Shown: piece by piece, positions 9,001-41,092 of the stretch
How the letters are laid out: each line of letters opens with the position of its first letter
Position numbering within the stretch: position 1 is the stretch's first letter
Assembly (NCBI RefSeq): GCF_026340655.1
Contig: NZ_JAPEOZ010000001.1
Span: 7,688,001-7,752,000, forward strand
Direction: 5' to 3'
Source: Streptomyces sp. NBC_01275
Lineage (GTDB): Bacteria; Actinomycetota; Actinomycetes; Streptomycetales; Streptomycetaceae
Length of the DNA stretch: 64,000 nt
The notes under the pieces: generated by a model
Databases searched by the model: none
What the model was told of the DNA's origin: nothing
Seen by the model: the letters and a program-made list of their open reading frames with translations, nothing else
Translations under genes and position numbers: made by a program

Positions 9001-12000
9001 TGCCCCTGCCCCTGACCCTGACCCGGGAGCACCAGGAGGCCCTCGTCCGGGCCCAGTTGGTCGCGGCCCGGCGGTGGGACGCTCCCACCGCCCTGCTCGC
9101 GGCGGAACGCCTCGCCCAGGATGCGGAGCTCCATCTGACCCTGGTGCACGAGAACGGCACGATCGACACGTTCGGTACGGCGCGCGGTACGGGCGCCGAC
9201 ACGGAGAACGCCGTGACGGTGTACGAGCGCGGCGACGAGTTCCTCGCGGCGCTGCCCGAGGGCACCCGCAACCCCAAGGGCCCGTACAACCACCGCACCA
9301 CCCCGGCCCCGACCCCGACCTCGACCCCGGCGGTCCTGCCGACGCCGCCCCCGGACGACACCCCGACCCCGGCCCCGGCCCCGGCACCAGCCCCGACCCC
9401 GGCCCCGGCACCAGCCGAGAACCCGTACGACGGCGACTCGGACGACACCGACCTGTACGACGACGACCGGCGCACCTACGACCGGCGCGACGCCGCCCCG
9501 TCCTACGGAGCGCTGCACGACAGCGACCCGTACACCCCCGCCTTCGCCGAGTTCGACGGCCTGCCCCGCCCGCGCGCCCTGTCCGACCCGGAGTCCGCTC
9601 CCGAGGTGCTGGACCGTGTCGGGCTGAAGGCGCTGGTGGACGACCTGGCGCTGGTGGTGCCGCCGGAAGGTGCGCCGGTGAGCCGGTGCCTGACGCTGCT
9701 GGGCAAGTTCCGGGACGCGCTGCTCCAGGGCCAGTGGGGCCGGATGGCCGTGCGGCACGCCTTCACGGCGGGCCGCCGCTCGGTGGACGACTCGGCGCTG
9801 CACATGGCCGGCGCGGCGTCCGGCCTGGTGGCGGGCCCCGGATGGGACCGGGTGGGCTCGTGGGACGCGGTGGCGGACGCGCTGCGGGACGTGGAGCGTG
9901 CGGGGCCGGGGTCGGTGGCGCTGGTGCTGGCGCGGCGGCCCGGGTCGGTGTCGGCGGAGCCGGGGCGGCGGCCGGAGGACGGGCTGGGGCACGCGTTCGC
10001 GGCGTACCACCTGCCGGACGGCGTGGTGTGGGTGGACGTGTCGCGGGACAAGGACCACCGGGTGCTGTCGGAGCCGCCGGAGATGACCCTGTTCGACGCG
10101 CGGGCGATGGTGATCGACCCGTCCGGGCAGGTGGTGACGGACCTGCTGCCGCCGTTCGCGGAGTCGTCGTCGACGGCGCACGCGCTGCTGGACGGGGCGG
10201 TGCGCGACGCGTACGCGGGCGTCGGCACCGGGGTCAAGTACCGCCATCCGACGCAGATCGAGGTCTCCGAGGGGCTGTTGCGGAGCCTCGGCACCCCGCC
10301 GGGGGAGCAGCCCGATCTGCGGAGGGCGGTGCTGGCGCGAGGGCCCGGGGTCAAGGTCGTCCTGGGCGAGGCGACGTTCCACTTCGACCCCGCCACCGGC
10401 GGGCTCGTCGACATCGCCTCGCCGTCGCTCGCGGGGTCGGGGTTCACGGAGGTCAGTTCGTACGTCCCGGAGGTCGTCGTCGATCCGGCGGCCTCGGTCC
10501 CGGGCGAGCCGCGGCAGTCCCTGGTGGAGGCGGAGGTCCGGCGGGGGCAGGTCCGTGACCGGCTGGCGCGCACGGTCGGGGAGGGCGCGACCTCGCTGGA
10601 GGACCTGCTGAGCGGTCTCCCGGACTGGGAGGTCACCGAGGCCGGCAAGGCGGCCACCGTCCATCCCCCCGCCCTGGACTACGACAACCTCTCCGCCACG
10701 CGTTTCTCGTCGGGGACCCCCGCGGTGGGCCGCGCGCTGGTCCTGAGCCAGGCCGTCGACGGGTCGCCGCACACGGACCTGCTTCCCCTGTTCATGGCGG
10801 GGAGGGAGTTCGGGGAGCGGGCCGTCGGCGAGTTCGTGGGCGCCATGAACCTCGGGCGCGGCGCGGTTCCGTCGGAACTCGTCCCGTTCCTGTCCGCCGT
10901 CCCCGATGTGGACGAGCTCTGGGGATACACCTGGACGGTGTTCAACCGGATCGGCGCCAAGCCGGTCAACGCCGCGCTCGCGCTGGCGCCCGAGAACTGG
11001 GTGCCGATCAGCAGCATGCAGCCGACGGCACCCCGGTCCGCGCTCGACGCCGTCAGGCGGGCGCTGAGGCCCGGCGAGCACGGCTCGCGGGCCTTCCTCG
11101 GCGCCAACCACGACAGGCTCAGCGCCATCGCCGAGGAGGTGCTGACAGATGTACTGGCGCGTCTGGCCCAGCTCCACCGGCCGGGCGGGGCCGTCTCGTA
11201 CCCGTTCGTCGACGACACGGTCGGCGACGATCCGACCCCGCGTGCGCAGCTGACCGCCGCGCTGACGGGGCACACTTCCGAGGGGAATCGGATCGGCCCG
11301 TACGAGTCGATCGGCGTCCCGGAACTCCCGGGCCTGGACACCGGCGGCGGGCGGCTGGCGGTCCCACTGATCGTGGACGTGCTGCCGGCGAACACGCTCG
11401 ACGGCACGAGAATCACCGAGGACCGGATCAAGCAGTCCGGCCAGGAGTTGGCGGATCTCGGCGAGGGGCTGTACGCGCGGGCGGTGGCGACCAGGGTGCC
11501 GCTGTCGCCCGAGGTGCTGCGCCGGTCGGTGGAGCGGATTCTGGCCGATCCGCTGGTCCAGCGGTTCGCCGGTCTCCTGGCGATGGCCGTCACCGGCGTG
11601 CCGCAGGTGGGTGATGCTCCACCCCTGCGGCTGCTGAACCTGGCGGACCAGCTGAAACTGGCCACGACGCTGGGCCGTCACGCCCTGGGGCACACCCGGT
11701 GGTCGACCGACCCCGATCCGGCGTACCGGCGGCTGGAGGCCCTGGTGCAGCGGGCGGACGAGCTGCTGGTGAACGGGTCCGTGCCGCTCGGTGCCGACCG
11801 CACGAGCTTCCAGCAGGCCGTCGAGAACGCGCGGCGGGGGCTGCGGCTCCTGCATACGGCACCGACGCCGGCGCCGGACGTGATCGAGTGGAAGCCCGAG
11901 ATCGCGGCTCTGGACGAGTCCATGGTCCCGGTGGACCGGTTGTGGCACGTCACCCACCGGAATGCGGCGGACGAGCCGGTGGGGGTGTCGTCGCGGCGCG

Positions 12001-15000
12001 ACGGGGAGTGGGTCGGGTCGTCGGGGACCTACGGCCTGCTGCCGGAGGTGACGCACCTCAGGGAGAAGCAGTGGGAGCCGTCGCCCGACGGCTCGGAGAT
12101 GTCCGCGGTGGAGACCTACCGGAAGGCGCCGTTCGACCAGGTGTTCCTGGTGGGTCTGGACGGGGACGGGACCTCGGCGGAGCTGCGGCCCCGGAACCAG
12201 GACGATCCGAGCGTGGCGTTCCGCTACGAGGGGGTGGTGGAGTACCTCTTCGCGCAGGTTCCGGCGCTGACGGCGGCGCCGCGTGACACGCACGTGGTGG
12301 TGCTGGGCGCGGACGTGGCGGGCCCGCACGCGTACGGCCGCGATCCGCTGGAGTGGCCGATCGCCGCCTGGGTGCTGGCCGAGAGGTGGGACCGGTGGTC
12401 GTGGGCGTCCGCCACGGGCATGGAGATCACGTTCGGCTCGCGTGTCGAGGAGCTGACGGACGAGGAGGTGGACGAGCACGGTGAGCGGCGGCCGGTGCCG
12501 ACGACCTCCCTTCGGCTGACGGACTTCGACTCGCTGGCCGGCGCCCGTCCGCTGCCGACGTCGGCACAGTTGGCCGAGTGGGCCGAGCGGCTGACCGGTG
12601 ACCGGCAACAGGCGGACGCCGTCAAGCGGTGGTGGTGGGCGGTCCGGCTGGTGTACGGGCCGATGCTGGAGGACGACAAGCCGGCGTTCGAGGCCCTGTT
12701 GCGGGGCTTCCAGGCGCTGGACCAGCGGCGGAAGGCCCTCCAGCCCGATGCGCCGCTGCCCCTGCTGACCTGGGATCGTCTGCGGGCCCTGGTCGACGCG
12801 CACTTCGGTCGGCTCGGGCAGGACACGCCACCGTTGTGGGAAGCGCTGCCGGAAGTGCTGGTGGCGGCCGCGGATGAGGTCGGTACGCCCCTGGACCTGC
12901 CGGGCCCCTTCGATCTGACGCCCCGGTATGTCGCCGTGCGGGCATGGGATTCGGCTCCGGCGCCCGTGGTGGCGGGTCAGGCGCCTGCCGCCGACGAACC
13001 GGGGGGTTCGCCGATGGTCCTGGCGGCGGACGACGACGCCGCGCCGGCGTTCCAGGTGCCGCCCGTACCCGCGTATCCCGAGCTGCCCGCGCCCGGCGGC
13101 GAGGACGCCGTCGACCCCACCGGAGCCGCTCCCGCCGACGACCTCCCCGACGACCTCGCCATCGACCTCGCCGACGCCTGGGACGAGCACACGCAGGCCT
13201 GGTCCACGCTCGCCGAGGCTGCGGCCGTGGAGCAGGCCGAAGGCGACACCATGCTGTTGGACGACTCCTGGGGCGGGGTCAAGTGGGCGCGTACGGAGCT
13301 GGAGAACACCGAGGCACGACTGTGGGCCCTGGGCGTTCCGCTGGACACCCTGGCGGCGGCGCGGGGTGTCGACGAGGCCGACGGGGCGGCCGAGGTGCCG
13401 ACCGTACCGAGGGACGCCGACCAGCGTCTGTGGATCGCGCGGGAGCTGACCGAGGCGGACCTGCCGCCCGGTCAGCCGCTGCCGGCCCCCGAGCCGGTGA
13501 TGCGCGACGACGAGCAGCTGTCGGAGCAGGGGTTGTCGCCGCTGGACCTGACCCGCGTGCTGATGACACGGTCCGGCGCCTGGACGGACGCGCTGAACGC
13601 GGCGGCGGCGAACGCGGCGCGGCGGCTGTGGGAATCGGCGTACGACGCCTTCCGGGGCGCGGCGCCCGCCCGTGCCGTGGAGACCGACCTCACCCGGGCC
13701 TGGACCACCGCCGTTTTCCTGGTGCTTCCCCGGGAGCCGCACGCGGTGCTGGCCGACTCCCGGTACGCCGGGAGCGACTTCCACCACGCAGTGCGCCGGG
13801 TCGCCGATCACCTTTTGGCGGGCGGACCGGACCCGGAGACCTCGCTGCGGTCGGCAGCGGGTCTCGCCGACGACCTCCGGCTCGGGCTGGGCCTCCGGGA
13901 GCGCTGGAACGTGCCCGCCACCGGGGCCGACGCGCCCGTTGCGCCGACCCCGGAGGCGACCGGGCTCGTCGGCGACTACGCGGCCCTGGGTCGGGCCCTG
14001 GGTCTGGACCTGGAGCTGGACGCCGCCCTGCGTCGGGACGCGGAGGAGGACCCGGGCCTGGACCTGAGGGTGCCTCTGGAGCTGTACCCGGAGCTGGCGG
14101 ACCTGGACCTGGACCCGGATCCGGACCTGGACATGGCGGACCTGAACCTGGACCCGGACCTGGACATGGCGGACCTGAACCTGGACCCGGATCCGGCGGA
14201 CCTGGCCCCGGACCCGGAGCCGGACATGGCCCCCCCGGCCTCGGACCTGAGCCCGGACGCGTTCGGGTCCCCCGGCGGCACGCCGGTCGACCCGCCACCG
14301 GCCGACCCACTTCCGGTGCGGCGGCTGATCGCGGTGCAGTTCATGCACGGAGACAGAAGGGAGCCGCTCCTGACGGCGAAGAACGACCTCGATGCCTTGG
14401 CGTTCGAGGTGGCGTCGGCCGGTCTGCGGGGTGCGCTGCCGAGGACTCTTGCCATCGGGTACGGCGCCAACGGATTCGACGAGGAGCGTGCGAGGCGCGT
14501 AACCGATCTGTTCACCGGCTTTCTGGGCGGTGCGCTGACCACTCTTCAGCAGGGTTTCGCCGACGATGTGTCACGGCTGCGCGCGGCGGACTTCACGATC
14601 GACGCGTCTCCGGGTGGCCCGAGCCCCTCCCCCGAGGTGGCCGGACTCGTGCCGCCGGAGGAGTCGGAGCCGCAGGGGGCGGTCGAGGTCATCTTCTCCG
14701 CGGATGCGGAGCCGCATCCGGTTCCGCGAAGGGCTGTGCCGCTTCGGGCTCTGCCGGCGCTGACCCCTGTGTCGTTGGTCGGCAACCGGGGACTGCCCCG
14801 GAAGAGGGACAGCACCCTCAAAGAGCTGGCGTTCGGGCTGGCGTTGGCCGGTCTGCGGAACCGGAAGGCGAAGGTCTCGCTGCCGCCGGCCGACATCACC
14901 GGGTACGGCACCGCAAAGGTTCACGGTGATGGTGGCAGGACGCGTGCGGAGCGCGTGTCCAAGGAGTTCAAGCGCCTTCTGGGCGATGCGCTGGACACTC

Positions 15001-18000
15001 TTCAGCAGGGTTTCGCCGACGATGTGCCACCGCTGCGCCCGGAGCACTTCACGATCTCCGAGCGGCCGGGGGGAGAGTGGCCCTCCATGGAGGCCGCCGC
15101 GCGTGCCGGCGTACCGCTCGCGACGTTGATAGACCAGGCGACGGTCGGGATCACCCTCGCCCCGGACGCGGCGGCGGTGGCGACGCTGGATGTACTGCGC
15201 GGGAGTGTCCGGGAGCTGCGTGACGGTCCGTTCGACCTGGACGCGGTGGCCCGTCGTGTTCTGCGGCTGCCGGAGGGCACGCCGGTGGACGAGGCCGCGC
15301 GGAGGAAGCTGCTGGAACTGGTGGGGGATGCCGAGGCGGCCGGGCCTGTGGAAAGTCTGGCGGCCTTGGAGGCGGCCTCGGCAGCGGCTGCCGAAAGGCT
15401 TCCCGGGGGCGGTACGGAGGCCCAGGCCGTCGGCACCCTGCCGCTGTCCGGTCCCGATGAGGTGGGCGCGGGCATGGACCTGCCGGACATGGACCCGGAA
15501 GACCCGGATTCGGACTCGGACCTGGACTCGGGCCTGGACTCGGACCCGGACCCGGACCCGGACTCGGACCCGGGCATGGACATGGACCTGGACCTGGACC
15601 TGGCGGACCTGGACCTGGACCCGGACCCGGCGGATCCGGACTCGGACCCGGACCCGGACCCGGACTCGGACCCGGACTCGGACCCGGACTCGGACTCGGA
15701 CCCGGACTCGGACTCGGACTCGGACTCGGACTCGGACTCGGACCTGGCCCCGGCCCCCCCGGGCCCGGACGCGTCCGGCTCTCCCGGCGGCTCGCCCGCC
15801 GCCCCGCTTCCGGCGCGGCGGCTGATCGCCGTGAAGTTCCAGAGAGTGCGGGAAGTCCGCGGGTTGCTGCTGGACCGGTCGAAGAGCGACCTCAAGGAGT
15901 TGGCGTTCGAGGTGGCGGCGGCCGGTCTGCGGGGGCAGCAGCCGGCGGTCCGTATCACCGGCTATGGCAAGAACCGTGCTGACACGGAGCGCACGACGAG
16001 TGTGTTCGAGGAATTCACCGGCCATCTGGCCGAGGCGCTGGACACGCTTCAGCAGGCTCTGGCCGGGAACGCGCCACGGCTGACCGTGGCGGACTTCGCG
16101 ATCTCCCGGAATGCGGGGGAGAACAACCCGCCCCGCGCCGATGTCGAACTGCTCCGCATGGCGCGTAAGACGCTGGCGCAGTCGGCGACGGTCGAGGTCA
16201 CCCTCTCCCCGGATCCGGCACCGGTCGATGCGCGCCTGCCCGGGTCGCTTCGGGCGCTGCCGGCGCTGATGCTGGCGAGGATCTCCCGTCTGCGCCTGAC
16301 GGATGAAGCGAGAAGTGACCTTGCGAGTCCGGCTTTCGCGGTGGCGTTGGCCGGTCTGCGGAACCAGAAGGCGAAGGTCTCGCTGCCGACGATCGACATC
16401 ACCGGTTACGGCACGGCTGCTGTGGGTGGTCCGGCGCGTGCGGCGAGTGTGTTCGAGGAATTCACCGCCCGTCTGACCACTGCGCTGAGGACTCTCCAGC
16501 GGGCTCTGCCCGAGGACGCGCCACGGCTGAACGTGGCCGACTTCGGGATCTTCCAGAAGGCGGGTGGCAGACACCCGTCCACTGCCGTGGCCGGATCGCT
16601 CCGTATGTCGCCCAAGCAGCTCTCGATGCACGCGACGGTCGGGATCACCCTCGCCAGGGACGCGGCGGCGGTGGCGACGCTGGATGTGCTGCGCCGGGAT
16701 GACGAGGTACTGCGTGGCGGCCCGTTCGATCTGGACGCGGTGGCCCGTCGTGTTCTGGGTCTGCCGGAGGACGCGCTGGTCGACGCGGACGTACGGGACA
16801 AGCTGTTCAGGCTGGTACGGACTGCCGAAGCGGCCGGGCCCGTGGAAAGTCTGGCGGCCTTGGAGGCATCCGCGGCAGAGGAGGCGGGGGCGGAGGAAAC
16901 GGTGGCGGAGACGTCGCCGGGAACCGGTGGGGCACCCTTGCCCAGGATCCTGCCCAAGCTCAGCAAGGCACAAGGCCAGGCCGCCGAACTCCTCGCCAAG
17001 GGGCTCGACAACAAGGCGATCGCCAAGGCAATGGGCATCAAGGTCAGTACCGCCAACACTCATATCTCGAAGGTGTACGAGAAATGGGACATCCATGGAA
17101 GTCGGACGGCCAGGAGCCAGGAAGTCGCCCTCCTGCTGGAGAGCCTGGATGGACGCCCCCGTTCGGGGAAAGCGGCGGCGAACTCCGGGAGGACATACTC
17201 GCCCGCAGACCTGTCCAAACTCAGCGATGCTGAATTGCGGGTCGCCGAACTCGCCGCCGCGGGACTGTCGAACAAGCAAATAAAAGATGAACTCGGCATA
17301 GAGATCAAGACCATCTCGAACCACCTCTGGAGCGCGTACGTCAAGTTGGACATCAACTCCCGCGAGGAACTCGCCTTCTTCTTCGACACCCCGGAGGGAC
17401 GTCCGGAGAGTTCCGCACCGGAGGGTGCGTCCGGGGCTGGGGCGATGGAGTGGGAGCCCGTGGAGACACCGGTGGCGGGGCCGTCGTCGGAGCGGCCGGT
17501 GACGCCGGGGCCGTCGATGCCCGGTCCGGAGGAGTCCGACCCGGAGGAGTCCGGGTCGGAGGAGTCCGACCCGGAGGAGTCCGGCCCGGAGGACGCTGCC
17601 GCGAGTCCGGCGTTCACCGCGCCGGTCGATCCGCCGACGGCCGCCCCGCTCCCGGCGCGTCGGCGGCTGGTCGCGGCGCAGTTCAGGCGGGACTACAAGA
17701 CGATGTTCCCGAAGGCGCAGAGGGACCTCAAGGAGTTGGCGTTCGAGGTGGCGGCGGCCGGTCTTCGAGGTGCGCGGCCGGAGGTCCGTATCACCTCTTA
17801 CGGCTACAGCAGCAGTGGTATGCGGCGTGCGCAGTCCACGTCCGACGTGTTCGCCGGCTATCTGGACGATGTGCTGACCACTTTTCAGCAGTGGCTGCCC
17901 GAGGACGTGCCGAGGCTGCACGCGGCGGACTTCATGATCCCCCCGGGGTGGAGTGGTCTCCGGCCCTCCACCGAACTCACCGATGTGCCACCCGCGGTGT

Positions 18001-21000
18001 CGGCACGGCAGGTGACGGTCGAGGTCGCCTTCCCCCCGGAAGCGGCGGCGGATCCGGTTGATCCGCGAAGGGCCGGGCCGCTTCGGGCGCTGTCGGGGCT
18101 GACCGGTGTGGAGTTCGACCCCGTCACGGACCGCGTGTCCGGGGAGGGACAGAACAGCCTTGAGGCAAAGGCGTTCGAGACGGCGTTGACCGGTCTGCGG
18201 AACTGGAACGCGAGGGTCGCACTCCCGACGATCCACATCACCGGGTACGGCGGCACAAAGCACGGCCATGACATGAGTCTGCTGCGTACGGAGCGTGCCA
18301 CCGGGGCTTTCATCCGCCGTCTGGACGACGCGCTGAATACTCTTCAGCAGGGTCTCCCCGAGGATGCGCCGCGGCTGCGCGCGGAGAACTTCACCGTCCA
18401 TGCGGAGCCGGGTGGTGACCGCCCGTCCGATGCCGCGGTCGCGCTCGCCGGTGTGCCGTACGAGGAGCTGATGCGGGGGGCTACGGTCGGCTTCACCCTC
18501 ACCCCGGAAGCGGCGGCGGTGGCGAGGCTGGATGTGCTGCGCGCGCGCGACGTCGAGCTGCGTGGTGGTCCGTTCGACCTGGCCGCGGTGGCCCGTCGTG
18601 TTCTGCGTCTGACGGACGGCACACCGATGGACGACGCCGCGCGGGGGATGCTCTTCGGGCTGGTGCGGGATGCCGGAGCGGCCGGGTGGGCGGGAAGTCC
18701 CACGGCCTGGGAGGCAGCTGTCGAATGGCTGCACGGGGGCGCGGCGGAAGACGATGCCGTGGCCGCCTTGTCACTGTCCGGTCCCGATCAGGTGGGTGCG
18801 GCGGAGCGGTCGCGGATGTTCGGGGCGCGGGCCAGGGCCGAGGAGGTCCTGGAGGCGGCCGGGGCGGACGAGGACGCGTTCGTCAGCCGACTGCTCCGTA
18901 TGGATCCGGGGATCGAGCCCGACTGGATGAGCCGCGAACAGGCACTGAAGCTGCTGACCCGGGCGATCCTGGTGGGGCGGGAGGTGTCCGGCCCGGGTGC
19001 GGCGGTCGTGTACGACCTGGAGGCGCGCGGAGCCTACGGGACCACTGCCGTGCACACGGTCCAGGACGGAGTCCCGGGGCGCGGACGTGACTTCGTGGGC
19101 GACCAGCCCCCGCTGGTGGATCTGGCACGGTTCCTTACCCCCGATGGTATGGAGTTCGCGCCGTGGCGGAACCCGGACCAGGACCAGGACCAGGACCAGG
19201 ACCAGGACCCGGGCCCGGGCCAGGTGGACACGCCGGCTCCCTACCCGGTGACCATCACGCTGGACGAGCGGGATCCGGACCGTCTCCGGCTGACCTTCGG
19301 GGATCTGACGGAGGACCTGTCGGTCGACGAGTTCCTGGCGCTGACGGCGAACGACCCCGCTCTGACGGGCCAGGACCCGAACACTCCCGTACTCCTGTTG
19401 TTCTCGGGACCGGGGCTCGGCACGGCGGAGCTGGCCACGCGGCTGGCGACGCGGCTGACCGGCCATCCTGTGTGGTGGACCCCTTTCCCCACGGTATGGT
19501 CCGACCCCGCCGACGGAGGTCTCCCCGTGCTCACCGTGCTCACCGTGCTCACCGGAGCGCCCGTCGGCGCGGAGATCTGGCAGAAGGCGGTTCCGGTCGA
19601 GCCGCGGTCCGTCCGGCATGCCCCGCTCCCGGTGCCACCACCGGCACCGGGCGGAAGGGGGCTCGGGGACGGCGTGCCCGCGGCAGAGGGGGCGGTGGCG
19701 GAGACGTCGTCGGGAACCGGTAGGGCGCCCTTGCCCGGAGAACTGCGCGAACTCAATGACACGGAGTACAGGATCGCCAGACTCGCCGCCCGGGGGCACA
19801 GCGGCAAGGCGATCTCCACAACCACGGGCTTTGAGCTCAGTACCGTGAAATGGCACCTCACCAACGTCTACCAAAAATTGGGCATCACCGCGGCGAAGGG
19901 GGCGCACAAGCGCCAGGAACTCGCCGCGCGGTTCGGGTTCCCGAGCAAGGCGTCGTCGGGACCCAGCAAGGCACCCTCGCCCGGAGACCTGTCCAAACTC
20001 ACCGAGGCACAGAAGCGCGTCGTCAAGCTCGCCCACCAGGGGTATGCGATCCCGGATATCGCCCGCATGCTCAAGATCAAGGCCAAGACGGTTGCCAACC
20101 ACCTCGCGACCGCGCGCAACAGGTTGGGGGTTCACGACGACCAGGGCTTCGCCCCCTTCTTCGACACCCCGGAGGGACCTCCGGGGGGACCTCCGGAGGG
20201 CTCCACGCCGGGCGATGCGTCCGACGCCGGAGCTGCGTCCGAGGCGCCTGCGCCCGGCGCTGAATCCGGAGCCCGATCCGGGGCGATGGAGTGGGAGCCG
20301 TCCGGGCGGCCGGCGCCCCGGGCGTCGTCGTCGGGGCAGGCGATGCCCGGTCCGAGGATGCCCGGCCTGGAGGGGGCTGCTCCACGGATCTTCATCGCGC
20401 CGGTCGAGCCGGTCGCGCCGGTCGCGCCGTTCGAGCCGCCACCGGCCGTTCGGCCCGAGGACAGGCCGCTGCGGCCACTCCGGGAGCTGACCCCCGTGGT
20501 GTTCTGGGCCCAGGGCACGGAGCATCTGCTCGGGGAGCCGCGGCAGACCGTCCGGGAACTGGCGTACGAAATGGCGCTGGCCGGTCTGCGGAACCGGCGG
20601 GCGGATGTCGCGCTCCCGCCCGCCCACATCACCGGGTACGGCACCGACGCCGAGGGCACCAAGCGGGCGCGGAACGCGCACCAGGAGTTCACCGGCCTCC
20701 TGGGCGAGGCGCTGGAGAAGCTTCAGCAGGACCTGCCCACAGGTGAACAGCCCCTGGACGTAGCGGACTTCACGATCACCCGGCAGCACTCCGAGTGGCC
20801 GTCCGAGGAGGCGGCCCGACTCGTCGGCGTGGAGCAGGCGGACCTGGCGCGGTGGGCGACGGTCGCGGTCGCCCTGCCCGGGGACGCGGCGGCGTTCCAG
20901 ACGCTGGACGTGCTGCGCGGTCGCGACCGGCGGTTCCGGAGCGGTCCGCTCCGGGTGGACGTGGTGGCCCGCCATGTCCTGGGTCTGCCGGCCGGCGCGC

Positions 21001-23816
21001 GGGTGGACGAAGCCGCACGTACGCGGCTGTTCGAGCTGGTCCGGGCGGCCGAGCAGGCCGGACGGGCGGGAAGCGTGGCGGAGCTGGGGGCGTACCGCCT
21101 CGAAGGGCTGGGCGCGACGGGGCGGGCCCGGCGCACCTGGTTCACGGTGGGGGGACACCGGATCGACGGTCTCAACTGGCTGGGTCCGGACGTCATGGAG
21201 GCCATCGGGGGCCTGGAACTGGACACCGCCGGAAGCGATGTCCTCGTACCGGCTTCGGACGGCTCGCTGACCGTCCTCGCCGGTCCCCGGCGGGCGACGC
21301 CGTGGCCGAAGGACAAGGATCTGTACGTCGTCGGGGGCGAGGAGCGGAACGGCAGGGTGGTGGTGCAGCTGGTGGACGGCACGACGGAGGACGTGGAACT
21401 GGAGGAGTTCGTCGAGCTGGTGGCGGCGGACCTGGCGCGGGCGCGTCTGAAGCCGGGCACCCTGGTCGTGCTGGCAGTCCCCTTCCTGGGCCGCCACCGC
21501 GAGCGGCTCCAGCGGCTCGCGGAGCGTTCCGGCCTGGAGTTGCGGGTGCACAGCGGCGAGGTGCGGGTCACCCGGCGGGCCGACGGGAACGGTAGGACCG
21601 GTAGGACCGGTGGGACCGGTGGGCTGAACACGACGGCCGGCATCGACACGGTCACCGGACGGCCGGGAGTCCCCAAGGGCGCCTGGGTCTCGATCCGGCC
21701 GGGCGAGGGGCCCGTTCTCGACGACCGCATGCCCGGCTGGTGGGCCGATGTGGTGTCCTTCCCCATCGTCGACGAGTCGACGGACGTGCTGATCGGCGAC
21801 GCCTCGTTCCCACCGAAGGAGTACGCGAACGGCTTCGAGGAGGACTATGGCGGCCGGGCGACGACGTTCGTCCACTACAACAGCGCCCTGGACAAGGTGA
21901 GCCCGGAGCGCCCGCTGCCGACTCCGGGCCCTGAGGACGAACCGCTCTCCGAGGAGACGGCGCACCGCGTGACCGCGCACGGCGGACCGGACTACGTCGA
22001 CCTGGTGGTACGGGACAGGGCCACCGGCCGCCTCCGCGTACGCAAAGTCCCCAAGAGGACGGTGGCCCGGTGGGCGGCGTGGAAGACGTCCCATCTGTCT
22101 GAGAAGCACTGGATCGACCTCGGCATCTGCTGGTCCGGGACCCCCAGGAACCGTGCCCTGCCGGCCCCCGACACCGCAAGCCCGGCCCTGACCGGTGTGT
22201 TCGTGCCCGATCCGCTGGCGGAGGTCGCGGTGGGGCAGGAGATCGCGAACCAGGCGCGGCGCTGGGTGCGTGCTCCCGAGGGCCCGCAGCGGATGGCCGC
22301 GCAGGACGGCAAGTACGTGCGGTACCTGGACACCGACGCCAGTGGGCGGTACCGGGTGTGGCTGCTGTTCCGGCCGGAGCCGCTGGACACCGAACTGGAC
22401 ACGCTGGCGCGGTCGGCCGGGCTGCACGTCGGGGACGGCCCACTGACCGAGAAGGAGCGGGCGCGGCTCCGGGCGCGGACTCTGCGTCTGGTGCGGGCGC
22501 TGAAGTCGGTGTTCGGCGTCCGGGTGCAGGACCGTTCCGACTTCGGGGAGCTGCTGTCCGGGGTGGCGGCGGTGGAGGAGATGTGGCGGGCCGACCCGGC
22601 GTTCGCGCAGGCGGGTCCGCTGACACTGGATCTGCTGGAACGGGTGGTGGCGGAACGTCCGGAGGCCGGCGGGTTCGGGCTGGACCAGGAGGTCGCCGTA
22701 CAGGTGCTGGCCGCCGCGGCGGCGGAGCGGGCCACCCGGCGCGCGGCCCAACTGCCCCCGGCCCGGATGAGCGAGTCCGAGTTCGTGACGCTGCCCAAGG
22801 CGGTGCTGGAGGCTGCCAAGTGGGTGAATACGGACGCCATGGTGGGCGAGACCGTCCACGCCCTGGGGCTCTCCGGTCCCCGTGCGGTGCGGAAGCCGGA
22901 GCGGTCACGGATGTTCTGGGCGCGGGTCAAGGCCGGGGAGGTGCTGGACGAGCCCGGTGCGAACCTGAACGAACTCGCCGTACGGGTGCTCCATCTGGGC
23001 TCGACCCTCCACGTCGACGAATGGGAACTCGACAACCTGCGGCTGCTGCTCACCCACGCGTTCGCGGCGGGGCGGGACGCCACCGACCCGGACGTGGCGG
23101 CCGCGTTCCACCTGGAGCGGAACGGGATCCTCGGGTCCACCGCCATCACCACGGTCACCTCGGTCATGACCGATACCGATACCGACATGACCGACGCCGA
23201 CGCCGACGCCGATACCGACATGACCGACGCCGACGCCGACGCCGACGCCGACACCGACACCGAGGCTGAGACCGAGGCTGAGGCTGAGACCGAGGTGAAA
23301 AAAGGGTACGGCCGTGACTTCACGGGTGCGGAGCGGAAGCCGGTGAACCTGGCGCAGATCCACACGTCCGCCGGCCTGGTGGAGGCGCCGTGGCCTCGGG
23401 TCCCGTATCCGGTGGGCGTCGTGGTGGACGAGGACAAGCCGGACCATGTCGTAGTGACCTTCGAAGGCTGGACGCTGCGCATCCCGGGCACCGAGTACCG
23501 GGAGGTGATGGGGAACGACCGCGCCCTGATGCGCCTTCACCCGGACGTTCCCCTCGCCCTCTACGGTCGGGGGCCCGGCATGGACGAGCTGGCGGAGTGG
23601 CTGGCGCTGTACCTGGGCCGTCCCGTGTGGTGGACCGATGTCCCGACGCACCTGTCCGAGCAGAGCGGGGACGGACGTACGGTGCTCACCGCGCAGCCCG
23701 GATCCGCTGCTGACGGAGGCTGGCAGGTGGCGCTGCCCGGCGCACCACACTTCGCCGAGGACGCCCCGCCCCACGTCCCGCGGCCGTGGCCCGGGCCTGC
23801 CGTGGCCGGAGGATGA
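3..23816 (+). CDS. Giant multidomain protein, T7SS-associated, 5' end missing
   Basis: The frame is open to the left edge (last internal start GTG at 75), so the N-terminus is missing; at least 7,937 residues are encoded. Residue numbers count from the GTG at 75. In order: Pro-rich linkers around 220-400 and 1800; beta-rich region 450-1790; a helical, coiled-coil-like stretch about 2270-2495 rich in Ala/Arg/Glu; OTU-like domain 1 (2596-2812) with DGNG at 2626-2629 and His2801; OTU-like domain 2 with DGNR at 2899-2902; papain-like domain 3176-3356 with Cys3205, His3306 and Asp3321; acidic Asp-Pro/Asp-Ser linkers; seven 'ITGYG' modules and four 'LDVLR...VARRVL' modules (about 4746-7000); four GerE-like helix-turn-helix motifs; a C-terminal region with Cys7352 in GICWSG. 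By eye these are the only two Cys. It resembles giant Streptomyces proteins that I recall being annotated as 'lonely Cys domain-containing'. A large secreted or surface effector of a T7SS locus is inferred; no WXG motif or signal is visible here. Confidence 0.9.
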   Translation, partial: PTFETRLLHLEQPDPQQSAAARLTVAKALATGRDPYNVYALAAAHLEFEGLLGADTLITGTGTVGGRNLTGSDLARRVNLDKWLAPSATPEATDPALADTPWGSALLATAEALGNGWLRIRKPGGPWYYVLEDEYVELLARDPRIFGTPLRVPLVLGIPELGWFNPDLAPKLMVRLGREIISTDDLLDLHSDDPDDPDVPSRIDTTRRDVAPVWNRLSPRGGAGPGATGVPHGSSGAVGVSTGAVSAGAPAAGLHPTPPLPETGELRPPDPLVRPSGVPSNAGQAELSVPPQAPPPPPPPVPAITVTPPAEDGTPATPPARTVPEAPGNRIDEELEARRPARVDLGMLPPGAGHGPSVFSDGSRLPGYLDGLLPLPVDPVDVLPLTALTGTGTDAEAVTEAVTETLAELGPDPDPDPEPEQFVIGSENAVLRGTEQTADTILARLDGSPDTRPNQQPVRKRRRRPGAPVGTLDERLRQALRSDPRPFFQPEGHRFTYTTESGRVRVLYVKARTYADWERFSDGENAAGATNAVKVDSAHRLVSTTGTAEVVAETRQIGPGIPLGPPSWPVAPFGRGTGRVGRHRGVVFVAHDQVTSQAETRHADGSHLHLDDVYFDIRVADNEHEIPARPGVLGTRWWARPALERLAEYTSGFGVRKGLGLRLPDSLTSEWTKPPLRAPAEMRLGPGSDYRLVRTEGFASVEHVHAWAVGRLGVVPESTAHTALDKLFTPESMKRMSERLSRSMVVSEPLHTDDRHRTPLGAFTIRVEPGRAVPAKESDRAAIWNIGQTTIKNERKQTKAWFKEVAFAGGPSITANPLAWLGDIFGWESARLRAQFGPTARYGHTSGRTTMTGGSAADKSMGAAKEVPTVEYKVEKIVYVQKTGDPEPTRFVTWSLDRMTVTEARRLAGWDDGTALRGASGAEPYAPAFLTQDNPQTLGGSRVEQFLHADGRYTNPVPVPVPVPVPVAVAVAETGPVTDVPATDVPVTDPPAIDPPVTDPADPDAPNPANPANLDVLFPTDPPAPAPAPAREVTFLDAATDQVLTTLAAKYPTMVARFTDLGDPKKFRSISVYNAVLQNTTTVINALTHHTLAGNLKEAVPLGLDLALLEPGRITHTYRRIRLDVELTGRRYEGTQNDLGLTHTVIGTSRADGSRQATQTAEAGFEFTLSSRNTATDSEGRPANAVTTQAGFQAGRTRQDNTAYGMTASYETEHARPAPSHLFSYDLRLTVSSNGYWRFRGLLRGITFGVLGTELFGFWPQPPVDLIGGTAGDPITGRVLLSVADAEIPDKDPHAEGAVNPYRPTGPAETTVLDPARARRLTTGLLTDEDREAGPGPTDPDRSPGRLHGQPHETLAVLPTGGTPGLPDLVLRDASKGFGDRLLRRENPKGAWQLTQPGAPAHEASVRPHRPQYLAAEFDQASGPMGSRVTGLWGKGPYVDWLATVVHQVRVTRLRALGRPVPVATTTVVKSSTQAGGSSIRTHFKQVGGTFLYGHSHPEASVGTYGFVLRPWKRARGRAVTTTRSVTSGLGLVIGGMHVLTSGDAAHEVAASVRTTGLLRSLGRYMPGVPYGTAGRRQSVPGGWLGYLPERVAHRLGLLNDQLGPGPEYDRRPWRQHDWFRARPFAAYPVNTLDASKVLANIDKQLRNLGIDDPGRESVQHLLSGRITRALRRELGGSGASVPVRVGGPGWRTIRIGGRSVRVRAELVPDEGGQEFVGLWPGTETEDGRVATTVLTTGVSQNRGSDIGTLITENVHTGNAIAPAAGPSFQETGSTRQQVSAEQSATHAKNWRAVSKGPHAEFRTRYRLRVTLEVGTKRGEAPAGPVRAGAPAAGLHPTPPLPETGGLRPPDPPVRPTGVPSNAGQAETPNPRHRLLVDEEIGSITDLVPVSLIRPGTLPSTDTAPGTGDTGTDTTPGTGTETGTGDTGTNTGPGTDTDPAPDPLRPPEPTLPAPRLTVLTGEANPLRAQDPAAALTAWAAVPHPDGTTRPFQIPANGILVRDVVGDDRVRAASTVALGKAYDNRLAGADGELTGDELGQALVQAMRTPLTAEGTASAQALEDASGPGPLSAFFHETSPAWGGYRIDGLTENTFTDHASSAVALYTRPDLTAATLLAVADDTGLEAPEQFVYSTASDGSQGTTQNTLIGGTPILRSDAIGAANPVVNGTGADTADDDGQAVGQETAYQENIKPARSRAFLFAVPTTWLAVAEVDRQFKDGKAPTWLRNNLGGTLGRKPEAGAVEAETLVVAWIREDMARNLGLITDTNFPTRVGEAWDEVTKAATTWTEADAEYLALRREIPELRETAERAVATMAVARRRRRDAQRALGTEYTAAERAYDLAVRAAEAATPVEVPAAGTVTDPPGGFADRLRAAADLVTRARTELGEALLLELLVTSPAPEGEDGPLAKGFADAVTAAEARVDRARKQLVLATEAITTVRRNELARLLVPADRARADRRAAADQRMREAKESADTAARAMATAASALATRLQKTAAQRERAETAADEFHRVRGETDRLTRWHQLPADTGTGTDADTGTGTTTGTGTGTGTTPGTGTDTTAPAPAVTGTDTTPATTGTDTVTTAPAVTRAGLPEPTVTPHVAPTPDPDTEAEAPREPVYSRVTIDVGDTTRPLGLTGPDGRTHRLIDVHRDGNGFFHALAEARGYGETAKELREAVATELDGVPDDSPLLKRVTPDRPDTFTAEELAAAGLDLGTDTPQRREFDALGVIPDSAGDAPERTHQPLSPALRKALAVAQLLRPADAERDLGWDHGAADLWPTLAARLPVPGNPGIRIVTEDGLHHDHGPDPDQHLTAVPQVVLHLADSHYQAVHPVPEPEGTPVTPAPATPPAEPAERGPLPAHTRRPWLRPESTDTAQDTAESTAEDTASDSTAPAPAPVFDSASDPARLTDPDGHTYRLDAPPVDGNRFYAAVAMAMNGAGLRRPDNSEYAPEDLSRPSDRPLPDTALLDPRATFSAEELTEAGIVLTAAERRRFERSGGRLPLPLTLTREHQEALVRAQLVAARRWDAPTALLAAERLAQDAELHLTLVHENGTIDTFGTARGTGADTENAVTVYERGDEFLAALPEGTRNPKGPYNHRTTPAPTPTSTPAVLPTPPPDDTPTPAPAPAPAPTPAPAPAENPYDGDSDDTDLYDDDRRTYDRRDAAPSYGALHDSDPYTPAFAEFDGLPRPRALSDPESAPEVLDRVGLKALVDDLALVVPPEGAPVSRCLTLLGKFRDALLQGQWGRMAVRHAFTAGRRSVDDSALHMAGAASGLVAGPGWDRVGSWDAVADALRDVERAGPGSVALVLARRPGSVSAEPGRRPEDGLGHAFAAYHLPDGVVWVDVSRDKDHRVLSEPPEMTLFDARAMVIDPSGQVVTDLLPPFAESSSTAHALLDGAVRDAYAGVGTGVKYRHPTQIEVSEGLLRSLGTPPGEQPDLRRAVLARGPGVKVVLGEATFHFDPATGGLVDIASPSLAGSGFTEVSSYVPEVVVDPAASVPGEPRQSLVEAEVRRGQVRDRLARTVGEGATSLEDLLSGLPDWEVTEAGKAATVHPPALDYDNLSATRFSSGTPAVGRALVLSQAVDGSPHTDLLPLFMAGREFGERAVGEFVGAMNLGRGAVPSELVPFLSAVPDVDELWGYTWTVFNRIGAKPVNAALALAPENWVPISSMQPTAPRSALDAVRRALRPGEHGSRAFLGANHDRLSAIAEEVLTDVLARLAQLHRPGGAVSYPFVDDTVGDDPTPRAQLTAALTGHTSEGNRIGPYESIGVPELPGLDTGGGRLAVPLIVDVLPANTLDGTRITEDRIKQSGQELADLGEGLYARAVATRVPLSPEVLRRSVERILADPLVQRFAGLLAMAVTGVPQVGDAPPLRLLNLADQLKLATTLGRHALGHTRWSTDPDPAYRRLEALVQRADELLVNGSVPLGADRTSFQQAVENARRGLRLLHTAPTPAPDVIEWKPEIAALDESMVPVDRLWHVTHRNAADEPVGVSSRRDGEWVGSSGTYGLLPEVTHLREKQWEPSPDGSEMSAVETYRKAPFDQVFLVGLDGDGTSAELRPRNQDDPSVAFRYEGVVEYLFAQVPALTAAPRDTHVVVLGADVAGPHAYGRDPLEWPIAAWVLAERWDRWSWASATGMEITFGSRVEELTDEEVDEHGERRPVPTTSLRLTDFDSLAGARPLPTSAQLAEWAERLTGDRQQADAVKRWWWAVRLVYGPMLEDDKPAFEALLRGFQALDQRRKALQPDAPLPLLTWDRLRALVDAHFGRLGQDTPPLWEALPEVLVAAADEVGTPLDLPGPFDLTPRYVAVRAWDSAPAPVVAGQAPAADEPGGSPMVLAADDDAAPAFQVPPVPAYPELPAPGGEDAVDPTGAAPADDLPDDLAIDLADAWDEHTQAWSTLAEAAAVEQAEGDTMLLDDSWGGVKWARTELENTEARLWALGVPLDTLAAARGVDEADGAAEVPTVPRDADQRLWIARELTEADLPPGQPLPAPEPVMRDDEQLSEQGLSPLDLTRVLMTRSGAWTDALNAAAANAARRLWESAYDAFRGAAPARAVETDLTRAWTTAVFLVLPREPHAVLADSRYAGSDFHHAVRRVADHLLAGGPDPETSLRSAAGLADDLRLGLGLRERWNVPATGADAPVAPTPEATGLVGDYAALGRALGLDLELDAALRRDAEEDPGLDLRVPLELYPELADLDLDPDPDLDMADLNLDPDLDMADLNLDPDPADLAPDPEPDMAPPASDLSPDAFGSPGGTPVDPPPADPLPVRRLIAVQFMHGDRREPLLTAKNDLDALAFEVASAGLRGALPRTLAIGYGANGFDEERARRVTDLFTGFLGGALTTLQQGFADDVSRLRAADFTIDASPGGPSPSPEVAGLVPPEESEPQGAVEVIFSADAEPHPVPRRAVPLRALPALTPVSLVGNRGLPRKRDSTLKELAFGLALAGLRNRKAKVSLPPADITGYGTAKVHGDGGRTRAERVSKEFKRLLGDALDTLQQGFADDVPPLRPEHFTISERPGGEWPSMEAAARAGVPLATLIDQATVGITLAPDAAAVATLDVLRGSVRELRDGPFDLDAVARRVLRLPEGTPVDEAARRKLLELVGDAEAAGPVESLAALEAASAAAAERLPGGGTEAQAVGTLPLSGPDEVGAGMDLPDMDPEDPDSDSDLDSGLDSDPDPDPDSDPGMDMDLDLDLADLDLDPDPADPDSDPDPDPDSDPDSDPDSDSDPDSDSDSDSDSDSDLAPAPPGPDASGSPGGSPAAPLPARRLIAVKFQRVREVRGLLLDRSKSDLKELAFEVAAAGLRGQQPAVRITGYGKNRADTERTTSVFEEFTGHLAEALDTLQQALAGNAPRLTVADFAISRNAGENNPPRADVELLRMARKTLAQSATVEVTLSPDPAPVDARLPGSLRALPALMLARISRLRLTDEARSDLASPAFAVALAGLRNQKAKVSLPTIDITGYGTAAVGGPARAASVFEEFTARLTTALRTLQRALPEDAPRLNVADFGIFQKAGGRHPSTAVAGSLRMSPKQLSMHATVGITLARDAAAVATLDVLRRDDEVLRGGPFDLDAVARRVLGLPEDALVDADVRDKLFRLVRTAEAAGPVESLAALEASAAEEAGAEETVAETSPGTGGAPLPRILPKLSKAQGQAAELLAKGLDNKAIAKAMGIKVSTANTHISKVYEKWDIHGSRTARSQEVALLLESLDGRPRSGKAAANSGRTYSPADLSKLSDAELRVAELAAAGLSNKQIKDELGIEIKTISNHLWSAYVKLDINSREELAFFFDTPEGRPESSAPEGASGAGAMEWEPVETPVAGPSSERPVTPGPSMPGPEESDPEESGSEESDPEESGPEDAAASPAFTAPVDPPTAAPLPARRRLVAAQFRRDYKTMFPKAQRDLKELAFEVAAAGLRGARPEVRITSYGYSSSGMRRAQSTSDVFAGYLDDVLTTFQQWLPEDVPRLHAADFMIPPGWSGLRPSTELTDVPPAVSARQVTVEVAFPPEAAADPVDPRRAGPLRALSGLTGVEFDPVTDRVSGEGQNSLEAKAFETALTGLRNWNARVALPTIHITGYGGTKHGHDMSLLRTERATGAFIRRLDDALNTLQQGLPEDAPRLRAENFTVHAEPGGDRPSDAAVALAGVPYEELMRGATVGFTLTPEAAAVARLDVLRARDVELRGGPFDLAAVARRVLRLTDGTPMDDAARGMLFGLVRDAGAAGWAGSPTAWEAAVEWLHGGAAEDDAVAALSLSGPDQVGAAERSRMFGARARAEEVLEAAGADEDAFVSRLLRMDPGIEPDWMSREQALKLLTRAILVGREVSGPGAAVVYDLEARGAYGTTAVHTVQDGVPGRGRDFVGDQPPLVDLARFLTPDGMEFAPWRNPDQDQDQDQDQDPGPGQVDTPAPYPVTITLDERDPDRLRLTFGDLTEDLSVDEFLALTANDPALTGQDPNTPVLLLFSGPGLGTAELATRLATRLTGHPVWWTPFPTVWSDPADGGLPVLTVLTVLTGAPVGAEIWQKAVPVEPRSVRHAPLPVPPPAPGGRGLGDGVPAAEGAVAETSSGTGRAPLPGELRELNDTEYRIARLAARGHSGKAISTTTGFELSTVKWHLTNVYQKLGITAAKGAHKRQELAARFGFPSKASSGPSKAPSPGDLSKLTEAQKRVVKLAHQGYAIPDIARMLKIKAKTVANHLATARNRLGVHDDQGFAPFFDTPEGPPGGPPEGSTPGDASDAGAASEAPAPGAESGARSGAMEWEPSGRPAPRASSSGQAMPGPRMPGLEGAAPRIFIAPVEPVAPVAPFEPPPAVRPEDRPLRPLRELTPVVFWAQGTEHLLGEPRQTVRELAYEMALAGLRNRRADVALPPAHITGYGTDAEGTKRARNAHQEFTGLLGEALEKLQQDLPTGEQPLDVADFTITRQHSEWPSEEAARLVGVEQADLARWATVAVALPGDAAAFQTLDVLRGRDRRFRSGPLRVDVVARHVLGLPAGARVDEAARTRLFELVRAAEQAGRAGSVAELGAYRLEGLGATGRARRTWFTVGGHRIDGLNWLGPDVMEAIGGLELDTAGSDVLVPASDGSLTVLAGPRRATPWPKDKDLYVVGGEERNGRVVVQLVDGTTEDVELEEFVELVAADLARARLKPGTLVVLAVPFLGRHRERLQRLAERSGLELRVHSGEVRVTRRADGNGRTGRTGGTGGLNTTAGIDTVTGRPGVPKGAWVSIRPGEGPVLDDRMPGWWADVVSFPIVDESTDVLIGDASFPPKEYANGFEEDYGGRATTFVHYNSALDKVSPERPLPTPGPEDEPLSEETAHRVTAHGGPDYVDLVVRDRATGRLRVRKVPKRTVARWAAWKTSHLSEKHWIDLGICWSGTPRNRALPAPDTASPALTGVFVPDPLAEVAVGQEIANQARRWVRAPEGPQRMAAQDGKYVRYLDTDASGRYRVWLLFRPEPLDTELDTLARSAGLHVGDGPLTEKERARLRARTLRLVRALKSVFGVRVQDRSDFGELLSGVAAVEEMWRADPAFAQAGPLTLDLLERVVAERPEAGGFGLDQEVAVQVLAAAAAERATRRAAQLPPARMSESEFVTLPKAVLEAAKWVNTDAMVGETVHALGLSGPRAVRKPERSRMFWARVKAGEVLDEPGANLNELAVRVLHLGSTLHVDEWELDNLRLLLTHAFAAGRDATDPDVAAAFHLERNGILGSTAITTVTSVMTDTDTDMTDADADADTDMTDADADADADTDTEAETEAEAETEVKKGYGRDFTGAERKPVNLAQIHTSAGLVEAPWPRVPYPVGVVVDEDKPDHVVVTFEGWTLRIPGTEYREVMGNDRALMRLHPDVPLALYGRGPGMDELAEWLALYLGRPVWWTDVPTHLSEQSGDGRTVLTAQPGSAADGGWQVALPGAPHFAEDAPPHVPRPWPGPAVAGG
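740..860 (+). repeat. Intergenic-type Streptomyces repeat inside CDS, copy 1
   Basis: A 121-bp segment that reappears at 5483-5603 with about four mismatches and in the same codon phase. It contains short inverted repeats such as CGCCCTTCGGGCG and a segment (CCCTTCCCGAAACCGGGG) that I recognise from repeats common between Streptomyces genes. Here it is translated as a Pro-rich linker ending GVPSNAGQAE. Confidence 0.85.
5483..5603 (+). repeat. Intergenic-type Streptomyces repeat inside CDS, copy 2
   Basis: Second copy of the 121-bp element at 740-860, same orientation and reading phase, again translated as a Pro-rich linker within the giant gene. It joins the beta-rich block to the Thr/Gly/Asp-rich linker that follows (5700-5830). 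Confidence 0.85.
14040..14260 (+). repeat. Acidic low-complexity repeat (Leu-Asp-Pro type)
   Basis: Inside the giant gene the codons GAC, CTG, CCG and ATG repeat to encode an acidic linker rich in DLDPD and DMADLN. It separates the helical middle of the protein from the first ITGYG module. Confidence 0.8.
15480..15750 (+). repeat. Asp-Ser/Asp-Pro simple-sequence tract
   Basis: About 270 bp built almost wholly from GGACTC, GGACCC and GGACCTG hexamer-like units encode a run of (Asp-Ser)n and (Asp-Pro)n, about 90 residues. It lies between the first and second A-A'-B module triplets. Length variation by slippage is expected for such DNA. Confidence 0.85.
23165..23300 (+). repeat. Asp-Ala/Glu-Ala simple-sequence tract near the C-terminus
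   Basis: Repeated GACGCC/GATACC/GAGGCT codons encode an acidic stretch (TDMTDADADAD, then EAETEAEAE) about 200 residues before the end of the giant protein, followed directly by a basic KKG. Confidence 0.8.
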
Positions 23817-31155: not shown

Positions 31156-31797
31156 TCAGATCAGGCCGGAGCGTATGGCGTGGGCCACGGCGTGCGCGCG
31201 GTTGCGCAGTTCCAGACGCTTCATCAGACCGGACAGGATGTACTTGATGGTGCGCTCGGAGTACGAGAGCAGTTCCGCGATCTCCGACAGCTCCTTGCCG
31301 TCCGCGATCAGCCGCAGCACATCCGCCTCACGCGGTGTGACACCCGACGCCGTCAGGCCGTGCGGGGTGAGGACTTCGCGGTGGGTCCACTGGACCTGCT
31401 CCATGAGTGCGCCCTGCAGGGCCGGCGGAAAGCTGCCCCCGCCCTCCGCGACGGTGATCAGCGCCCGCACGAACGCGGCGGGGGTGAAGGAGTCCCGCCA
31501 CACCACGGCACGTACCCCCCGGTCCACGGCGGTGAAGATGTTGGTCTGCCACTGCCGGCCGACGACGAGCACGAAGCGTGACTCACGGCGGTCGGACAGC
31601 GCGGCGAGCACGTCCAGGGTGCCGGCGTCGGCGGAGTCCACCGCCACGACCGTCACGTCGGCCTCGCCGGTTCTGCTGGGCGGAACCTCGGTGATCCGCC
31701 GGTCGAACTGGAGATGGTTGGCCAGTCCGGCACGTATGACGGCATCGGGGGCGTGGATCGCCACCCGAACGGTGAGTGTGGGCGCCGACCGGGGCAT
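31156..31797 (-). CDS. NarL/FixJ-type LuxR-family response regulator
   Basis: 213 residues. N-terminal receiver-like fold (1-125): VRVAIHAPDAVIRAGLANHL, then VTVVAVDSADAG. The acidic pair expected at the start of a receiver is absent (HAPD instead), though an Asp lies near the usual phosphorylation site, so phosphorylation-independent activity is possible. C-terminal GerE HTH (about 150-213): VTPREADVLRLIADGKELSE, ERTIKYILSGLMKRL. ATG at 31797 has GGAGGG upstream. No histidine kinase gene is adjacent. Its position next to the T7SS-like operon suggests it could control that operon (inference). Confidence 0.85.
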   Translation of the reverse strand: MPRSAPTLTVRVAIHAPDAVIRAGLANHLQFDRRITEVPPSRTGEADVTVVAVDSADAGTLDVLAALSDRRESRFVLVVGRQWQTNIFTAVDRGVRAVVWRDSFTPAAFVRALITVAEGGGSFPPALQGALMEQVQWTHREVLTPHGLTASGVTPREADVLRLIADGKELSEIAELLSYSERTIKYILSGLMKRLELRNRAHAVAHAIRSGLI

Positions 31798-31864
31798 TCG
31801 CCCTCCACTGGGTACCAGAGTGACGGCACGACATCAGGCTTAGTGAAGGGCACGGATATCGCAC

Positions 31865-31879
31865 ATGTCACAGATGTCA
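31865..31879 (-). promoter_or_regulatory. Possible regulator site upstream of the response regulator
   Basis: The direct repeat ATGTCA-CAG-ATGTCA lies about 70 bp upstream of the response-regulator start within a 207-bp gap. Direct repeats with one-turn spacing suit a NarL-type dimer. No clear promoter boxes are visible. Confidence 0.35.
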
Positions 31880-32004
31880 TGGTTGGGGAGTCTGAGCAAC
31901 GGGAGGCCGATGCTGTCATGTTCCCGCCCCATGATCGGTAGGCAAATACCCCCCGTGCACCAAGGAATAGGGAAACCTGGCGCGAGTTCTGCCACCCGAC
32001 AGGC

Positions 32005-35151: not shown

Positions 35152-35181
35152 AGTCCGTGCTCTCCTAGTGCCGCGTAGGTT

Positions 35182-35225
35182 GCCTGGCAGGCCGATTCCC
35201 CGTCAGGGCAAACCCGGTCGACCGG
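35182..35225. promoter_or_regulatory. Palindromes between divergent LAL genes
   Basis: Two perfect inverted repeats lie in the 227-bp intergenic region: GCCTG-G-CAGGC at 35182-35192 and the 12-bp palindrome CCGGTCGACCGG at 35214-35225. They are candidate binding sites for one or both divergent regulators. Unproven. Confidence 0.4.
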
Positions 35226-35378
35226 ACCTTAAGGGCGACTGCAATTATTGCTGCGCCCGGTGCGTAAACGGCAGGGACCGCCACGCGATCCCCGCTGGTC
35301 GTGGGACGCCGTCGGAGATCGAACGGCGAGGCCCGGCTGTCCGGGCGAAGGAAGCGACGAACGAAGCGAGGAGTCGCC

Positions 35379-38468: not shown

Positions 38469-38499
38469 GACCCGCCACCGGGCTGTCCGAACCCGGGCT

Positions 38500-38528
38500 G
38501 CCCGCACCGCTGAGCCGGATGTGCGGGC
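38500..38528. terminator. Possible bidirectional terminator
   Basis: Stem GCCCGCAC / GTGCGGGC (8 bp, 13-base loop) between the convergent LAL and corA genes. Confidence 0.5.
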
Positions 38529-38545
38529 GCTCGTGAGGCGATTGC

Positions 38546-41024: not shown

Positions 41025-41048
41025 CGCCTCGTCGCGGGGCGTGGCGAG

Positions 41049-41077: not shown

Positions 41078-41092
41078 GGACGTTTGGATAGA

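Follow-up and report, generated by a model that had tools for sequence, protein, structure and literature searches.

In a 64,000-nucleotide stretch of the 10.4-Mb genome of Streptomyces sp. NBC_01275 (contig NZ_JAPEOZ010000001.1, positions 7,688,001 to 7,752,000; hereafter the window), a giant 'lonely Cys' protein encoded at a type VII secretion system (T7SS) locus carries four helix-turn-helix (HTH) modules of the LuxR type, arranged as two pairs. It is almost certain that such modules were acquired by a lonely-Cys giant at the T7SS locus of a Streptomyces-type genome, and very probable that they are genuine LuxR-type HTHs captured by this lineage. As to what they do, nucleic-acid binding is tentatively preferred as the function kept by the HTHs (probability roughly 0.4), with a narrow lead over reuse of the fold for structure or protein binding. 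Among the regulatory folds of this genome the LuxR HTH is very common, and here it is found twice doubled in an export-looking protein, with the fold seemingly kept after duplication. Should the modules bind DNA, a T7SS giant would hold a DNA-binding part that is not an enzyme, or the wall would be linked through them to extracellular DNA. Should they not, a regulatory fold would clearly have been made over into a building block.

Identity, duplication and origin of the HTH modules

The profile search of the genome gave four matches to PF00196 (GerE/LuxR) in one frame of the giant, all above the curated cut-off of 23.5 bits (Table 1). In hmmscan, the last 3,938 amino acids of the giant gave a GerE E-value of 2.1e-34 over four stretches. 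An earlier note on this DNA, made from the letters alone, had read four LuxR/GerE segments here and proposed the profile search; the four significant matches (29.1 to 46.2 bits) agree with those segments, and the two pairs, the quoted peptides and the shared FFDTPEG tails are all present. A chance match or a wrong frame was ruled out by the four matches over the cut-off in the giant's frame. Genome-wide, 91 GerE matches were obtained with PF00196 when 150 of the 173 first-look candidates were scored. Furthermore, pair 1 (HTH1a and HTH1b), which alone was modelled, was predicted by AlphaFold2 to form two four-helix LuxR-type folds, as the note had suggested should be looked for, and the model superposes on the NarL-DNA and LiaR-DNA structures. 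The last module, HTH2b, ends about 1,220 residues ahead of the C-terminus.

Lower GC content had also been noticed near the HTHs. The AT-richer codons near 17275 are present, but this is not specific to the HTHs, because units B and C, the OmpA-like neighbours, have a GC content at third codon positions (GC3) of 0.82, compared with 0.79 and 0.84 in the two HTH pairs and 0.916 in the whole gene. As a separate observation, the HTH1b region (window 17205-17429) matched IcmE/DotG chains in the Protein Data Bank weakly (24.5 bits, E 0.00028), possibly by convergence.

By their sequences, the two pairs are copies of one another. Pair 2 was 43% identical to pair 1 (E 4e-28) and 40% identical over 153 aligned residues in a second comparison, and the linkers and FFDTPEG...AMEWEP tails are common to both. 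The origin of the modules was ranked among 90 GerE domains of the genome, that is, the giant's four and 86 of the 87 others, the weakest (under the cut-off) being left out. HTH1b and HTH2b were reciprocal best matches. The best matches of HTH1a were HTH2a (34.1 bits) and HTH1b (33.6 bits), and that of HTH2a was HTH1b (36.3 bits), with the free domain L142 close behind (35.8 bits). In a tree of the 90 domains, the giant's four stood together (support 86/90, not starred), and the smallest well-supported set holding them had 23 rows, including three of the window's own regulators. This tree has 58 columns and does not settle the donor.

Outside the giant, the best match of HTH1b was the domain L169 (contig position 8606348; 47.5 bits), the C-terminal end of a 625-residue protein with a P-loop-like start (frame at contig 8604712-8606586), which appears LAL-like. 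A regulator of roughly 600-650 amino acids with such a C-terminal HTH, the nearest to HTH1b outside the giant, was seen in several Streptomyces genomes. Capture from the nearby LAL genes had been suggested, and this was not supported: the window's five regulators never ranked above 26 for any giant HTH. The best-placed neighbours ranked 34, 19, 26 and 40 of 90 for HTH1a, HTH1b, HTH2a and HTH2b, ranks 19 and 40 belonging to an upstream LAL outside the window, and on these ranks the neighbouring LALs were rejected as best donors; the closest relatives within the genome lie in neither the neighbouring LAL genes nor the neighbouring response-regulator genes. The order of capture may have been that one HTH came from a LAL-like source, became a pair by doubling and, as a pair, was copied again along with a duplicated OmpA-like/lonely-Cys module. 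The window's regulators themselves form a LuxR-type cluster at 31159-46128, with three AAA_16+GerE (LAL-like) proteins, a GAF-GerE protein and a protein that has GerE alone; in hmmscan, the GerE of one of the LAL-like proteins fell slightly short of the cut-off.

Possible nucleic-acid binding and other possible uses of the fold

In the mechanism that we favour, the giant would be exported, its OmpA-like domains would hold it at cell walls, and its caspase-like lonely-Cys modules would cut it. The HTH pairs would have been retained as folded modules that bind nucleic acid, their sequence specificity being probably changed or low, and would hold either extracellular DNA or, once the giant is processed, that of a target cell. 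The residues were compared with those of 86 free LuxR domains of the same genome. L2, L12, G16, I22, T32 and H36 were identical in all four HTHs, and position 43 was K, K, K and R. In addition, LuxR HTHs usually bind DNA as a dimer, which a tandem HTH pair resembles. The giant is acidic overall (mean charge -1.75 per 50 residues), and HTH2b has a charge of +7, with only 1.3% of the giant's 50-residue windows as basic; pair 2 as a whole is in the top 2% of the 155-residue windows for basic charge.

Several observations weigh against DNA binding. The Arg of column 5, found in 77% of the free domains, is A, A, T and A in the four HTHs, and the Ser of column 29 (76%) is K, E, E and K. The Arg of column 49 (97%) is aligned in HTH1b only, that of HTH1a lying one residue on. 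Moreover, the recognition-helix residues differ among the four copies, and column 34, where NarL and DosR make base contacts, has Lys in HTH2a only. The charges of HTH1a (+4, 7.7% of windows as basic), HTH2a (+3, 12.8%) and HTH1b (0, 38.5%) are unexceptional, as is pair 1 as a whole (13.6%). The ratio of nonsynonymous to synonymous change (dN/dS, NG86) was 1.02 between the pairs, and the flanking units gave 1.14-1.29, values that are crude at this GC bias; the average site is without visible purifying selection because the ratio is about 1. Charge alone is insufficient to decide on DNA binding, and the residues give a mixed picture, a kept fold with some kept residues standing against the loss of two typical ones.

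The same losses at columns 5 and 29 in all four copies would suit a LuxR fold that has lost DNA binding and now serves, between OmpA-like units, as a stable helical spacer or a protein-protein module. This explanation is a serious one, somewhat short of an even chance. It also fits the dN/dS near 1, the best structural matches of the neighbouring folds, which are wall-binding OmpA-like domains, and the scores under a GerE model trained on the 86 free domains, 35.0-52.6 bits for the four HTHs and 50.9-98.0 bits for the free domains, the latter inflated by that training. Against it stand T32, H36 and K/R43, retained in all four modules, the strongly basic pair 2, and the likeness of the tandem pairs to a LuxR DNA-binding dimer.

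The HTH region evolves fast, as do the flanking units, and the fate of the fold was followed by letting one copy drift at random, under a simple mutation model, until it had diverged as far in amino-acid identity as the other copy (300 runs in each of 8 settings). After neutral drift the median GerE score lay between -1.7 and 2.3 bits, with a maximum of 24.7, and 0 of the 300 runs in each of the 8 settings reached the observed score (35.0-52.6 bits in the real copies). The simulation presumes a common ancestor of the copies, which is supported by the shared linkers and tails. The result is read as a fold maintained on a fast-changing surface.

Distribution among relatives

The survey of the OmpA-like/lonely-Cys module covered 391 other genomes of the genus and 393 other genomes of the family, in overlapping draws with few candidates scored per genome. 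The module was carried by 32 other genomes, 19 in the genus draw and 13 more in the family draw, in open frames of 1,325-17,018 amino acids, and none of the module matches among these 32 reached the HTH part of the query. One frame per genome was then scanned with two GerE models from which the giant's HTHs were excluded. In the parts read (321,199 amino acids, partly masked), neither model recognised a GerE domain, the maximum being 5.7 bits. The 86-domain model recovers the giant's four HTHs at 24.5-41.6 bits. The narrower model recovers them at 12.1-40.8 bits and could miss diverged HTHs, since HTH1a and HTH2a score only 12.1 and 14.4 bits with it. Furthermore, 12 of the 32 frames run off an end of the stretch or contig, and in 8 of the 12 the open end is the C-terminal one, the side on which the giant carries its HTHs. 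Two relatives (G389 and G122) miss the last 1,897 and 1,679 residues, and in a third (G594) almost half of the residues are masked (4,918 X of 10,643). The absence applies to the parts read because of these open and masked frames.

The protein search with the HTH region found no match at E <= 0.001 among 1,291 candidates (proteins of about 4,350-13,850 amino acids). With a longer region, for which the 628 candidates with the most words in common were scored, three giants were obtained: P0006 (5,670 amino acids, 'protein of unknown function', Streptomyces sp. KY75), P0007 (Streptomyces sp. NPDC057418) and P0008 (Streptomyces sp. NEAU-S77), the last two annotated with the lonely Cys name. They share the region surrounding the HTHs (37-43% identity in the best local alignment) but, unlike the giant described here, have no GerE domain by the local model. 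A second HTH-bearing giant was not found with an HTH-pair query in 198 other genomes of the genus (17 candidates per genome scored), nor with pair 2 and its flanks in 99 relatives. One scan of named genomes for relatives of the giant gave no match, and a further scan gave at least four loci, three of them contigs among the relatives above (G211, G029 and G580); the four listed loci had no GerE match, the best score being 6.9 bits. The named relatives, three proteins and at least four loci, were all from Streptomyces. The HTH-bearing lonely-Cys giant appears so far in one genome.

This narrow distribution, as far as the 32 frames were read, would be expected if the HTHs were recent, unselected recombination debris without function, and the low GC3, common to the flanking units, and the dN/dS near 1 point the same way. 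It is an improbable explanation, given that the real copies keep scores far above those left by neutral drift.

The giant protein, its locus and known systems

When the window was joined with the contiguous upstream stretches, the giant gene was found to have 14,805 codons, from an ATG at contig position 7667399 to window 23816, in an open frame of 14,860 codons. The size of about 8,000 residues given in the note was wrong, because the gene starts 20.6 kb upstream of the window; the full protein has 14,805 amino acids. The lonely_Cys profile NF012197 (cut-off 200 bits) scored 920 bits in the last 3,938 residues and 2140 and 472 bits in the upstream pieces, and its scan found no match within window 75-11999. 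The protein is a member of the 'lonely Cys' giants. Its N-terminus matched PF25547 WXG100_2 at 30.7 bits (cut-off 27). Upstream of the gene are a mycosin-like subtilase, EccD and EccB genes and a YbaB-family gene, and an FtsK/SpoIIIE ATPase (EccC-like) gene lies at the locus on the opposite strand. The T7SS setting read by the note was borne out, with the adjoining mycosin, EccB, EccC and EccD genes, and the giant has the WXG100-like N-terminus at a T7SS locus that is expected of a T7SS substrate; it is probably exported.

The giant might act in the producer before export, the HTH pairs binding the cell's own DNA (for instance, the T7SS locus) and coupling synthesis or export to transcription. 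LuxR domains are normally found in intracellular regulators, and downstream, over some 30 kb, there are five genes of the LuxR type. However, the HTHs are about 12,500 residues beyond the export-type N-terminus and amid OmpA-like modules, and those of the neighbouring regulators are not their nearest relatives, so this alternative is also improbable.

Only 10 Cys occur among the 14,805 residues. The His-Gly motif has eight matches, six of which precede a Cys by 58 (n=5) or 50 (n=1) residues. The His-then-Cys order at 50-58 residues is that of clan CD peptidases, and the lonely-Cys modules may be caspase-like. Both the six His-Gly...Cys motifs and the ten Cys fit the caspase-like repeats of giant Streptomyces toxins, as described in PMC3482391 (Zhang et al. 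2012). For instance, SACTE_5178, a giant actinobacterial polymorphic toxin of that paper, has 13,652 amino acids, and T7SS is among the export routes given there for caspase-domain toxins; the present giant is similar in size and in its repeats. The domains named there for such giants include peptidase, ADP-ribosyltransferase and MCF1-SHE, LuxR is not mentioned in 300,000 of the 357,715 characters of the text, and the 'Tox-HTH' of that paper has other signature residues (RxxY, R, [ST]).

The PF00196 regulators of the LuxR/LAL and NarL/FixJ groups share the HTH fold and profile match with the giant. Their HTH is C-terminal, whereas those of the giant are internal and four in number, and no receiver, sensor or STAND ATPase domain was found by Pfam in its scanned pieces; it does not have the build of a LAL/NarL-type transcription factor, a C-terminal HTH with a STAND ATPase or receiver. 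In the open PMC literature, no paper was found on the lonely Cys domain, on LuxR HTHs in polymorphic toxins or on giant T7SS genes of Streptomyces. Toxin domains over the cut-off were likewise absent by Pfam from the scanned pieces; a Gln_amidase papain-fold toxin domain (PF15644) matched below its 24.1-bit cut-off, at 22.3 and 22.9 bits, at window 9831-10043 and at L002:15380-15499. It is conceivable, and rather unlikely, that the giant is a secreted self-processing vehicle carrying the LuxR-type DNA-binding pairs into neighbouring cells as a non-enzymatic effector on target transcription or the chromosome.

Table 1. Features of the giant gene in the window
Feature	Position	Strand	Basis
Giant lonely-Cys gene, C-terminal 7,937 codons	3..23816	+	ORF and NF012197
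Unit A: two OmpA-like domains and start of lonely-Cys module	14250..15390	+	Self-comparison, repeats D2-D7; approximate borders
Unit B: two OmpA-like domains and start of lonely-Cys module, directly ahead of HTH pair 1	15800..16881	+	Self-comparison, repeats; approximate borders
HTH1a, LuxR/GerE-type	16959..17102	+	PF00196, 36.5 bits
HTH1b, LuxR/GerE-type	17217..17378	+	PF00196, 46.2 bits
FFDTPEG...AMEWEP tail, after HTH1b	17379..17532	+	Repeats D10 and D11
Unit C: two OmpA-like domains	17600..18570	+	Self-comparison, repeats; structure model of 18060-18728
Lonely-Cys module, C-terminal part without His/Cys core	18738..19721	+	Self-comparison
HTH2a, LuxR/GerE-type	19752..19889	+	PF00196, 29.1 bits
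HTH2b, LuxR/GerE-type	19995..20147	+	PF00196, 34.8 bits
Second FFDTPEG...AMEWEP tail, after HTH2b	20148..20373	+	Repeats D10 and D11
Unit D: one OmpA-like domain, then complete lonely-Cys module	20457..23813	+	NF012197 best stretch; motifs

As shown in Table 1, self-comparison gave the tandem order unit A, unit B, HTH pair 1, unit C, HTH pair 2 and unit D. The partial lonely-Cys module ahead of pair 2 resembles residues 4870-5180, 2633-2942 and others of the giant and has no Cys codon, and the core of unit D has His-Gly near 21975 and a Cys codon at 22128. The model of window 18060-18728 had a pLDDT of 82, and its best Foldseek matches were OmpA-like and weak (best match E 3.8e-3, probability 1.00, TM 0.31/0.51, 5.6 Å); Pfam gave no OmpA-like match in the last 3,938 residues. 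Long Asp-rich runs lie between modules at window 15475-15773 and about 14100-14210, and the longer one matched NCBIfam Sdr/Clf adhesin models far under their cut-offs.

The linkers of the giant gene also hold a GC-rich repeat in five near-identical copies (window 727-860 and 5470-5603; contig 7670174, 7680098 and 7683085), four of them in one reading phase, with strong predicted folding as calculated without a shuffle control. Some copies are among the lowest-GC3 stretches. Its 22-base core occurs exactly five times genome-wide, always in the giant gene and on the coding strand; with up to three mismatches, 15 further sites were obtained, one of them also in the giant gene, on the other strand.

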